This document shows, one piece after another, positions 8,690 to 12,059 of a stretch of DNA of 23,240 nucleotides. The notes under the pieces were generated by a model. That model searched no databases. It was not told the DNA's origin and worked only from the letters and a program-made list of their open reading frames with translations. This DNA is from a virus, in IMG/VR virus record IMGVR_UViG_3300010883_000507, positions 1-23,240 of that record. One strand, given 5' to 3'. The translations under genes were made by a program, and so were the position numbers. Position 1 is the first letter of the stretch. Every line of letters begins with the position of its first letter.

Positions 8690-8730
8690 TCTATACAAGA
8701 ATATACAACTTTTCTCACATATTCCCCCAT

Positions 8731-8853
8731 TCCCTAAAATAAAAAATTGTGTGTGTTATGTTGAGTAGAGGTCCAACAGTTTTGCTCCCCAGCTTATTTT
8801 CGGGTGGCTGTGTCCCCCATATTTTATTCTTAACAATTAAAATTTCAATCAAA
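8731..8853. promoter_or_regulatory. Divergent intergenic region between leftward and rightward genes
   Basis: This 123-nt stretch separates the two transcription directions. It is more GC-rich than its flanks and has competing small stems (CAGC 8790-8793 with GCTG 8807-8810; GGG with CCC nearby). Its right end turns A/T-rich (TTAACAATTAAAATTTCAAT) just before the rightward ATG. A rightward promoter is expected here, but no TAnnTTTG box is present on the plus strand. Confidence 0.35.
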
Positions 8854-9216
8854 ATGGAAAATGAAATTCAAGACAACAGTGAATTAGAAGTATACTTCTA
8901 TTCATTATCTGATACTGGCACTATCGTGTGTGTGAGTCAAGACCAAAGCTTAAACAAGTCCAAGCTTAATGGTCATGACGTGTACACTCGTCAAGAAGAA
9001 GCCAGAATTTTTGGCCTTCTTGCCTTGTGTAAAATTGATCCAGACACTGGCAAACCAGTTGCCGTGCATGGCTCAACAGTTGGTTTGAAACCTAATGCAA
9101 AGATATCTCCTGCATTTAAGTTTTCAAACACACCTGTCCTCCAGCGTGGAGATGACCCTGAACGGGGCCTCTCTGATGGAGATCCAACAGGCATGTTTTG
9201 GGTGACAGCTAGCTAA
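8854..9216 (+). CDS. Unknown 120-aa protein, GC-rich for this genome
   Basis: The ATG at 8854 follows an A/T-rich leader (AATTTCAATCAAA). A GTG-led extension to 8749 would cover the GC-rich divergent region and is unlikely. The protein starts MENEIQDNSELEVYFYSLSD, is soluble, beta-rich, and ends with a Gly/Asp-rich segment (DDPERGLSDGDPTGMFWVTAS). Codon use includes many GC-rich codons (CTC CAG CGT GGA) not seen in nearby genes, which may reflect transfer or high expression. It directly precedes the first large structured non-coding region, whose first stem begins 3 nt past the stop. No family is recognised. Confidence 0.65.
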   Translation: MENEIQDNSELEVYFYSLSDTGTIVCVSQDQSLNKSKLNGHDVYTRQEEARIFGLLALCKIDPDTGKPVAVHGSTVGLKPNAKISPAFKFSNTPVLQRGDDPERGLSDGDPTGMFWVTAS

Positions 9217-9877
9217 TAGCTGTTCCCAAATAGGGTGTAACAACCCTAACAGCCTCACTGGAAGAAACCATTGGCACCATCTACTCACTTACCAAGACCA
9301 TCCATAGAAAGCTGCGATCAGTGGACATAACCTGTCTTATGTATGGCTTGGGAGTTGATGTTGTTACAGTTACATCTACTGTTCTATCTACATTTACTTC
9401 TACCTATAGTAAAGAAGAACAAGTTCATTGATTATTTGCGTGTGTCAGTCAATGAAAGGGTATCCAAATACCATCACATAGTATGGTTACACACTATTAA
9501 AACTATTCTCTCACCAGTAATTAATAATATAGCTATAACACATAGTACTGTCTATAAAGATGAAGCTAATTTAGACTACTAGTGGATTGTTAGTTGGAGT
9601 TTGTCACTCTGATGATTCAGTATGTGTTATAGTTATGTTATAGTCTATAGGAAAAGAGTATAGGTAACCGCATAATTGGAAATCAGTAGTAGCCTTTAAA
9701 ATACTGATGTCTCTTAAAATAAAGAGATTGGCTAAACATATTGGGCCAAGCAAGACAGGAATAACGCAAGTAGAAATACTTGTGCCTGGTGCTCAATCTA
9801 ATATGGCAGTGGGTAGGTTCACCACTCTGAACTAATAGGAGATAGAGTTCAACTCTCTACATTGCCACAATACAACA
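9217..9877 (+). ncRNA. Candidate large structured RNA A (about 650 nt)
   Basis: No convincing gene lies here, but paired segments run through the whole stretch. Examples: TAGGGT 9231-9236 with ACCCTA 9243-9248, inside GCTGT/ACAGC (9219-9223/9249-9253). A multi-branched element at 9278-9360 pairs CATCtACTC, CCAA, CCAT and CATA with TATG, ATGG, TTGG and GAGTtGATG around two inner hairpins. TTCATTGA/TCAATGAA pair at 9424/9449. A perfect 12-bp helix joins 9533-9544 (CTATAACACATA) to 9621-9632. ATCAGTA/TACTGAT pair at 9682/9702. An 8-bp stem with a GAAA tetraloop spans 9765-9784. GGCAGTG/CATTGCC closes 9805-9866. The stretch is also more GC-rich than neighbouring genes. The strand is assumed from flanking genes. 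Class unknown; large ornate phage RNAs such as GOLLD or ROOL are comparisons to test. Confidence 0.6.
9805..9867 (+). ncRNA. tRNA-like domain at 3' end of structured RNA A
   Basis: A 7-bp acceptor-like stem (GGCAGTG 9805-9811 with CATTGCC 9860-9866, one G-U) is followed by A. It contains a T-arm-like hairpin TAGAG-TTCAACT-CTCTA (9843-9859) with the GTTCAA signature, and a short GGT/ACC or GTTC/GAAC arm. At 63 nt it is about 10 nt shorter than a normal tRNA, lacks the usual linker at positions 8-9, and has no clean anticodon arm with U33. It is therefore probably not a decoding tRNA; a degenerate tRNA or tRNA mimic fits better. Confidence 0.3.
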
Positions 9878-9899
9878 TTCACCACTTAAATTAATAATC
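9878..9899 (+). promoter_or_regulatory. Shared leader motif TTCACCACTTAAATTAATAAT
   Basis: This A/T-rich element directly precedes the ATG at 9900. It is nearly repeated before the ATGs at 10950, 12060 and 18048 (see the finding on leaders). It may be a phage promoter core, a ribosome-recruiting leader, or both. No Shine-Dalgarno sequence is present. Confidence 0.45.
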
Positions 9900-10439
9900 A
9901 TGACAAAAGAAGTAAAAGAAGTAAATTGGGAAACCTTACTGAAGAAAGAAAAGGACCAAGATATAGCATGGAAAATAATAGCTGATATGATAAAATCTGT
10001 TATTGTTTCCAGACAAGTATTAGATATGACATATTGTGACAGGATACTTGGCTTACAGCGTAAGCTACGGGACAAGTTATCTGATGTAAAAGGAGATCCT
10101 GCTATTTCACATGTGAATAAGACTTGGAATAATTATACTTCTGATCAGGAAGACTATAGTGAAGAGCATAGAGGTGGTGTCAAAGCATTAGAGAATATGA
10201 TTAACCATTTTGCAGCTCAATCTGGTTATGAATATATTCTTAAGGATTTAGATCTTTTAGCTGCCATTACTAAACCTAAACTTGATTGGTATAGACATCC
10301 TTATCAATGTATAGTCAGAGATGGGCTTTGTGAAGATCCTGAAGTTAATACAGCTGCACAAGATGCAATGACTATTGGTTTTCAAAAGGACTTGCAAGAT
10401 GCAGGTAATGTGAAACTTAGATGGTGGATAAGGTCTTGA
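9900..10439 (+). CDS. Unknown 179-aa accessory protein
   Basis: The protein starts MTKEVKEVNWETLLKKEKDQ, is mostly helical and charged, and has a Trp-rich end (NVKLRWWIRS). No transmembrane segment or known motif is visible. It sits between structured RNA A and a strong terminator at 10451, so it forms a one-gene unit with the upstream leader. Its position suggests an early, host-directed function, but that is only context. Confidence 0.75.
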   Translation: MTKEVKEVNWETLLKKEKDQDIAWKIIADMIKSVIVSRQVLDMTYCDRILGLQRKLRDKLSDVKGDPAISHVNKTWNNYTSDQEDYSEEHRGGVKALENMINHFAAQSGYEYILKDLDLLAAITKPKLDWYRHPYQCIVRDGLCEDPEVNTAAQDAMTIGFQKDLQDAGNVKLRWWIRS

Positions 10440-10501: not shown

Positions 10502-10858
10502 ATGAAGAAGGATACACACACCTATATAATTAAGAACAGGAAACCATTCTGCCTGTGGATGAATAAAGAAGTGGGAATTGCAACACGTGGTTACTTTGCC
10601 AGTACCAAGTATGTAGAAACAGAGGCAAATGAATATATTAAACAGGTATCAGGTGGTAAGTTTGGCTGGATAGACCATAATGGTCATCAGTATGTTACCA
10701 GTAAGTATGATATCAACAGACCTACAGATCAGCAGATCCATGACACATTGGAATCCCATTCCAAGTTTGCACAAGCATGTGTCAAGAAGGGACTAATTGA
10801 ACCATCAGGTATAGTCTCTATCAAAGCTCCATTATTTGGAAATGTTTGGTTGAACTAA
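10502..10858 (+). CDS. Unknown 118-aa accessory protein
   Basis: The ATG at 10502 follows AATCACTTAA, a shortened form of the shared leader. The protein starts MKKDTHTYIIKNRKPFCLWM, is basic and aromatic-rich in the first half, and ends GIVSIKAPLFGNVWLN. No motif is recognised. It lies between a terminator and a small structured spacer, and so appears to be an independent unit. Confidence 0.7.
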   Translation: MKKDTHTYIIKNRKPFCLWMNKEVGIATRGYFASTKYVETEANEYIKQVSGGKFGWIDHNGHQYVTSKYDINRPTDQQIHDTLESHSKFAQACVKKGLIEPSGIVSIKAPLFGNVWLN

Positions 10859-11252: not shown

Positions 11253-12035
11253 AAAGTTTTACCTTTACAATGAGATAGGCCAGCCTTCGTGGCCTTAAGG
11301 ATAAACCAGTAATGGGATAAAAGGGGATAACTGTTGATGAAGGTCAACAGCCTCTGATGTGAGTTCGCTTGCATTTCACTGAAAGGTATTGTAGTATTAA
11401 TGGTATGGTGAGTAAATCCTCGTGAGGTGACTCAGTATCATTAACTCTTTGACAGGCAAGGAGTTGAGCTAGAAATAGCAATAAGAACTATAATAGATTA
11501 TGGTAGTAACATCTAGCCAGGTGTGAAGCTGTGATTAGAACTGTGTTTGGTGCTAGTAGAAATACTGTGTCAATAAGCATAGAACAATGAGTAAGCTTGG
11601 CAGCTGAAAATAGGTAGGAGTTATGATCTAAACTGTTCAAAAGACAGCATGATCATATAAACTAAGGACATCTTCTACCTTTAACCTGAAACCTTTTTTA
11701 ACTAGAAGGTCCTTTGGGACCACCAAAATTAGAAAAGCCCAATAGTTCTTGGACATTTGGAACACAATGTTCTTATCCTGCTGTAAAATGCAGGCATTGG
11801 ATAGCTAGCAAGCTTGAAGGTGAACGGAATGAGTATTATTTAAGTAACAAGAGCCATCTTGTTAATCCTGGGAAGGAGCTTAGTATGAAAAGGAAGTTAT
11901 ATCTCCAAATGTAGTGGTTGCGTATAATCAATGTACGTGAACATGTTTCCTACTTGCAGTAATGTAAGTGTGTGTGAGAGTTAGAAATGACTCAAAACGG
12001 TAACGGAAAAGGCCAACACTCAACCTTTTAAATTT
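11253..12035 (+). ncRNA. Candidate large structured RNA B (about 750 nt)
   Basis: This is the longest gene-free stretch. Stems include AGGCCA/TGGCCT (11277/11290), CTGTTGA/TCAACAG (11331/11344), and a rod pairing AATGGTA and TGAGT with ACTCA and TATCATT (11399-11442). AACTCTTTG/CAAGGAGTT form a 9-bp stem (11443-11465), GCTA-GAAA-TAGC lies at 11468-11479 and AGTA-GAAA-TACT at 11555-11566. A nested element has AGGTAG/CTACCT (11612/11675) enclosing TATGATC/GATCATA (11622/11651) and CTGT/ACAG. GGTCC-TTTG-GGACC (11708-11721), CCTGC/GCAGG (11777/11790) and AACAAG/CTTGTT (11846/11858) follow. It is followed by the same leader type as region A. Function unknown; a 66-codon frame inside (TTG at 11714) is not credible. 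Confidence 0.6.
12007..12033 (+). terminator. Weak terminator-like hairpin at end of region B
   Basis: AAAAGG (12007-12012) pairs with CCTTTT (12024-12029) around an 11-nt loop, followed by AAATTT. The stem is short and A-T rich, so it may mark the 3' end of RNA B only weakly. Confidence 0.3.
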
Positions 12036-12036
12036 A

Positions 12037-12059
12037 TTCACTCAACTAAATTAATAATT
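12037..12059 (+). promoter_or_regulatory. Shared leader motif TTCACTCAACTAAATTAATAAT
   Basis: It precedes the ATG at 12060 and is almost the same as the leader at 9878, including TAAATTAATAAT immediately before the start codon. The rest of the two regions is not visibly alike at sequence level, so this match is notable. Confidence 0.45.

Follow-up and report, generated by a model that had tools for sequence, protein, structure and literature searches.

A previously uncatalogued structured RNA element within a composite noncoding region of a crAss-like phage

Bacteriophages of the crAss-like group rank among the most abundant phages, and little is known of how their gene arms are turned on. 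In phage HK022 the put RNAs serve as cis-acting antitermination leaders. Large phage RNAs of another kind, GOLLD and ROOL, assemble into RNA cages and are frequently located near tRNA islands (PMC12286853), while mycobacteriophage DS6A carries a tag-less (CDS-less) tmRNA inhibiting the tmRNA of its host (PMC11915505). The locus described here has traits in common with each of these systems. It was found in a 23,240-base IMG/VR fragment of a crAss-like phage (hereafter the window), which encodes the terminase large subunit on the minus strand (PHROG 6681); GenBank relatives of this terminase belong to crAss-like, Bacteroides and Flavobacterium phages. Genes of the window are directed leftward until approximately position 8730 and rightward from position 8854, and the rightward arm contains a PNK-type phosphatase, an ATP-dependent DNA ligase and a helicase. 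The region 8731–8853 between divergent arms, 5' of gene 8854–9216, shows conservation across many relatives, with 54 profile hits, and probably represents a promoter and leader region. For comparison, 80 viral loci (designated by L numbers) were fetched with terminase as a bait; gene 9900–10439, tried as an alternative bait, fetched no relatives. The first gene of the rightward arm gave tblastn matches in L003, L011, L032, L035, L039 and L062, and no Pfam or PHROG family was matched by it.

An earlier note based on the letters of the window pointed to about 650 nt without a gene behind this first gene. That is confirmed: no credible gene was found in the 683 nt at 9217–9899, a PHROG search with the sole ORF inside it (9343–9582, 79 aa) gave no family, and conserved protein coding, searched for by tblastn of stop-free peptides against the relatives, was not found (zero matches). 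To call such a gap exceptional was an overstatement, since a second one of 807 nt is present at 11253–12059. The stretch had also been described as GC-richer than nearby genes. Its GC content (0.368) does exceed that of the window (0.315), but genes 8854–9216 (0.43) and 10502–10858 (0.384) are higher and the conserved core is lower (0.329). The presence of structure beyond chance was borne out by folding. The plus strand of 9217–9899 folded with z –4.66, and none of 20 dinucleotide shuffles was as good, while the minus strand (z –1.45) was not clearly better than its shuffles and a control of equal length, taken nearby and mostly coding, gave z –0.37.

The strong overall fold of the plus strand, the phage setting, tRNA-like elements in the vicinity and the GOLLD match of the neighbouring gap would all suit a single giant ornate RNA of the GOLLD/ROOL type occupying the entire 650-nt stretch, as had been proposed. 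However, cmscan of 9150–9950 against Rfam at E≤10 registered neither GOLLD nor ROOL and only three chance-level matches, and conservation across the family is confined to 9440–9674 (about 200–250 nt), which we term element A; its flanks are not conserved, and relatives have genes or other elements there. A single giant RNA is therefore largely refuted and should be considered highly improbable. The stretch, which found no blastn matches among annotated phages, is a composite of several noncoding elements. Together with the preceding gene they are as follows:

8854–9216, plus strand: short gene (120 aa) heading the rightward arm; its kin precede element A likewise in other phages
9219–9253, plus strand: terminator-like hairpin (GCUGUU..AGGGU/ACCCU..AACAGC), –13.5 kcal/mol, z –1.96, directly behind gene 8854–9216
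9263–9375, plus strand: spacer able to adopt a branched fold, z –1.98, equalled by 10 of 200 shuffles; not conserved
9440–9530, plus strand: 5' block of element A with GTGTGTG, CCACA/ACCAC repeats and AATATAGCTA, seen in alignments of relatives
9533–9544, plus strand: 5' strand of stem A, covarying with 9621–9632 across relatives
9545–9620, plus strand: variable arm of element A, differing widely in length and sequence among relatives
9621–9632, plus strand: 3' strand of stem A, covarying with 9533–9544
9645–9672, plus strand: 3' motif CTATAGGA-N11-GTAACCGCA, near-invariant, with fixed spacing, a probable hairpin
9680–9800, plus strand: run of local hairpins (z –4.05), including a GAAA-capped 8-bp stem at 9765–9784
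9804–9867, plus strand: tRNA-like structure of 64 nt; acceptor GGCAGTG/CATTGCC, D-like arm GGT/ACC, T arm TAGAG-TTCAACT-CTCTA
9868–9899, plus strand: AT-rich 5' untranslated stretch before gene 9900–10439, common to L003

Not all of these parts have the same standing. The branched domain suspected at 9278–9360 is able to fold, but 10 of the 200 shuffles equal it and it is absent from relatives; the GAAA-capped stem does lie inside a hairpin run of low z, but relatives lack a homologue of it. Searches for homologues of the entire segments 9263–9375 and 9680–9800 in relatives also gave none. This absence of conservation is what one would expect if the structure had arisen by chance in a spacer without function. 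For element A such an explanation is refuted by the existence of a conserved family with covariation, and as an account of the whole its probability is negligible, but for 9263–9437 and 9680–9800 it may hold. The stretch 9868–9899 has its homologue in L003 in front of a different gene than in the window.

Element A was discovered by iterated profile searches seeded with the noncoding stretch of relative L025. The window was reached at the second round (E 1.6e-5), and a profile made without the window recovered it with E 5.2e-6, while in 1.96 Mb of unrelated control sequence the profile built without the window matched nothing. The motif pattern of the family was registered in 71 viral contigs with always identical spacing; the pattern with wrong spacing gave chance matches only. 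About 60 distinct copies were counted, all of them in crAss-like contigs, and a search of the GTDB genome set with the exact motif gave zero bacterial genomes. Neither Rfam nor 50,697 phage records contained a match to element A, and the cores from L128 and L062 compared with annotated phages produced only one chance match of 24 nt. Copies reading AGCTAT..TAACCGC, that of the window included, were designated type I, and those reading AGCTAAC..TACCCGC type II. The 3' motif CTATAGGA-N11-GTAACCGCA has a single occurrence in the window and reads CTATAGGATAAGAGACATAGTAACCGCA in many relatives. Direct reading of L003, the nearest relative, showed its element A to be degenerate, with an ORF replacing the arm. 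As a structured RNA, element A is genuine and had escaped cataloguing; its conservation, single copy, position, stem A and plus-strand bias are established, and its function is proposed.

The perfect 12-bp pairing of 9533–9544 with 9621–9632 (stem A), to which attention had already been drawn, is exact and is the sole helix with covariation support in relatives. It was assessed on 12 sequences anchored on motifs and not on full pairing. In this set 91.7% of cells were paired, two-sided changes occurred at six of the 12 pairs, and the covariation score (0.388 against a shuffle mean of 0.175) was reached by none of 500 shuffles; slid registers were paired only in 22–59%. As a part of the anchor, TATAG, lies within stem A, the pairs fixed by it carry no weight, but the varying pairs do count. 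With homologues in about 60 crAss-like contigs and covariation at the main helix, the suggestion of a genuine structured phage RNA holds. Among 53 copies compared, the duplex was well under its shuffles in most cases and was more stable on the plus than on the minus strand in 34, nearly always where stem A exists; G-U pairs are frequent on the plus strand, although they were chosen by the program. Stem A is absent in approximately 19 of the 53 copies, mostly short ones of type II, and therefore is not essential everywhere. RNAalifold gave no useful pairs on mixed alignments because registers differ between subgroups. A hairpin at the 3' motif is plausible, and some compensating changes can be seen by eye (L032 versus L128); excess conservation and frequent register shifts make a clean covariation test of it impossible. 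As to the arm, in L154 an ORF begins within it. A second partial copy resembling the arm from L025, without the 3' motif, was observed elsewhere in the phage L043 (2428–2293, minus strand), so that arms seem to be transferable.

The 5' block differs from the rest of element A in being conserved and unstructured (z –0.27 for 9397–9525). Its CCACA/ACCAC repeats are spaced a few bases apart and end in ATATAGCTA; a search for a further copy of any weight elsewhere gave none. Conservation without structure suggests that this block may be promoter-like or protein-binding DNA, and it is on this ground that a putative promoter is placed here, no known promoter consensus having been matched to it.

Repeats, an AT-rich tract and structure located where the arm of replication genes starts may be expected of a phage replication origin, in which ACCAC repeats would bind an initiator, the AT-rich tract would melt, and hairpins or a transcript would prime DNA synthesis. 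In line with this, 15 of the 16 long records of phages (42–122 kb) have precisely one copy of element A, and in two near-complete genomes element A is situated at a local minimum of cumulative GC skew. However, the skew at this place merely tracks gene direction and cannot separate an origin from a leader. Tolerance of stem A to G-U pairs and its higher stability on one strand favour RNA over a DNA cruciform, and type II copies are placed just 5' of start codons, as leaders are. An origin is therefore regarded as unlikely.

In relatives element A comes after a short gene related to 8854–9216 or after its positional substitute, and terminator-like hairpins were found 5' of it in 38 of 55 relatives compared with 70 of 220 shuffled sequences; L411 has a textbook terminator hairpin upstream. 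In type II relatives the motif ends about 35 nt upstream of the start codon. Element A is located where both the direction of genes and the GC skew change over, and its location fits an operon-head leader with a putative promoter there. Three other candidates were considered and rejected. An ATG straight after ATAGCTA as a mark of leaderless start was convincing by script in L154 only; sites inspected for GCAATATTGC as a general leader motif turned out to be mostly element A itself; and long gaps of L033 and L074 that looked free of genes, taken as possible RNAs, carry long genes on the opposite strand.

Based on the preceding gene with its terminator, the start-codon spacing in type II copies and the position at the direction switch, we prefer to consider element A as a promoter of the rightward replication arm followed by a structured 5' leader, acting in cis and processed at a 3' tRNA-like RNA, although our confidence in this reading stays somewhat below even. 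Transcription of gene 8854–9216 would stop at the terminator hairpin 9219–9253, and a fresh rightward transcript would begin near the ATATAGCTA box, behind the block of ACCAC repeats. The leader would then form a long hairpin, made of stem A with its replaceable arm, and a small one bearing the near-invariant CTATAGG motif. It probably works in cis, affecting either the polymerase during transcription or the stability of the transcript, in the manner of the put RNAs of HK022, and might let an arm rich in hairpins and tRNA-like RNAs be read through. The tRNA-like structure 9804–9867 would probably be excised by RNase P and RNase Z, parting the leader from the next mRNA. A bolder version, in which element A controls the whole replication arm, either as a leader RNA of a new, polymerase-modifying class or as a replication origin primed by RNA, is doubtful. 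If true, it would give a control element for a large group of environmental crAss-like phages, and the swappable arm of this element could host extra RNAs or genes.

The near-invariant 3' motif with its fixed spacing and the swappable arm are also compatible with a separate trans-acting small RNA, having its own promoter and subject to processing, whose CTATAGG hairpin would bind a host or phage protein; further small RNAs clustered beside element A in relatives point in the same direction. Yet no terminator was seen at the 3' end of element A, and several type II copies pass directly into the next start codon in a leader-like manner, which leaves a small RNA with a low probability.

The tRNA-like structure at 9804–9867 has an odd anticodon-like arm and discriminator A, and CCA is not encoded. 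Its homologue in L003, L082 and L083 is 77% identical; according to visual reading, three pairs of the T stem and one of the acceptor are changed on both sides with pairing kept. It was not assigned to tRNAs, as ARAGORN made no call and Rfam gave no tRNA match, nor did any tmRNA model match it: G3-U70 is absent and the third acceptor pair is C-G. Since the tRNA-like RNA of L003 precedes another gene, the role of a single-gene switch is unlikely, and punctuation of the transcript by RNase P and RNase Z may be supposed. A scan for a T arm with matching acceptor near element A gave nine sense-strand hits, six of them copies of ordinary tRNA-Arg, and zero on either control. A tRNA-Arg (anticodon TCT) or its close copy was observed 3' of element A in L026, L027, L035, L072, L084 and L123; ARAGORN called it in the first four.

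In relatives, tmRNA models matched from one end to the other, but the mRNA-like domain is absent (L003, E 3.2e-16; L025, E 4.2e-14). Three such mini-tmRNAs of 77–81 nt, with G3-U70 and discriminator A kept, were located:

L003, 1206–1282, minus strand: mini-tmRNA
L025, 770–850, minus strand: mini-tmRNA
L083, 6403–6479, plus strand: mini-tmRNA

They resemble the tag-less tmRNA of DS6A. Only nine sequences are listed as "standard, no CDS" in the tmRNA database. The mini pattern, corresponding to tmRNA-like molecules consisting of TLD only, was found in at least 120 viral contigs (L168–L287). Among the matches listed there were 105 distinct sequences of 70–98 nt; the acceptor is complete in 101 of these and the T stem in 104, and G3-U70 is present in all of those listed, but it was required by the search pattern. 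ARAGORN called a tRNA in 3 of 125 listed minis, and a CCA end was encoded in 36 of 125. Bacterial matches of the pattern seem, on reading, to be 3' portions of full-length tmRNAs. The TLD-only minis look like a family of viral RNAs that is widespread and unannotated, and tag-less minis may block ribosome rescue.

The next gap, 11253–12059 (807 nt), folds with z –3.47 and contains a plus-strand match to GOLLD (RF02032) at 11613–12026, which covers all model positions (1–416 of 416) with 77.8 bits and E 2.8e-20, below the curated threshold of 150 bits. This match was lost in longer scans with stricter filters, and so was the tmRNA match of L025. Judging from this model match, a divergent GOLLD seems to be present in a crAss-like phage at 1.9 kb from element A. 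A GOLLD search in genomes of 39 relatives gave nothing, yet it is uninformative because it missed the window's own match too. Near-identical noncoding pieces of about 70–90 nt were observed 3' of element A in otherwise divergent phages (L026/L154, L036/L062 and L025/L411), suggestive of an exchange of small RNA elements within a hub. Taken together, tRNA-like RNAs, tag-less tmRNA minis and the GOLLD-like RNA suggest a small-RNA hub missed by standard annotation tools.

Comparison with known systems delineates this locus from several sides. Like 9217–9877, GOLLD is a phage noncoding RNA beside tRNA-like elements, but it exceeds 800 nt, whereas the conserved part here is about 200–250 nt and 9217–9877 has no GOLLD match. 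With ROOL this stretch has in common its large gene-free structured character and differs from it in giving no Rfam ROOL match at E≤10 and in not being conserved as one unit. Minis similar to the DS6A tag-less tmRNA are present in L003 and L025 in the same region as element A, while the window's own tRNA-like RNA lacks G3-U70 and a tmRNA match. The latter shares with tRNA a paired acceptor, a T arm with the TTCAACT loop and GG in the D-like loop, and is distinguished by an anticodon-like loop without U33 and a very short variable region. Element A itself supplies a control point that is concrete and can be tested, placed where the replication arm starts in about 60 environmental relatives. Its nearest known parallel is put of HK022. 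There are two put copies against one element A, and crAss-like phages use other polymerases; no relation in sequence was seen, and the likeness consists in a short, strongly conserved RNA with two hairpins, situated behind a promoter (putative in our case) and heading a long operon.
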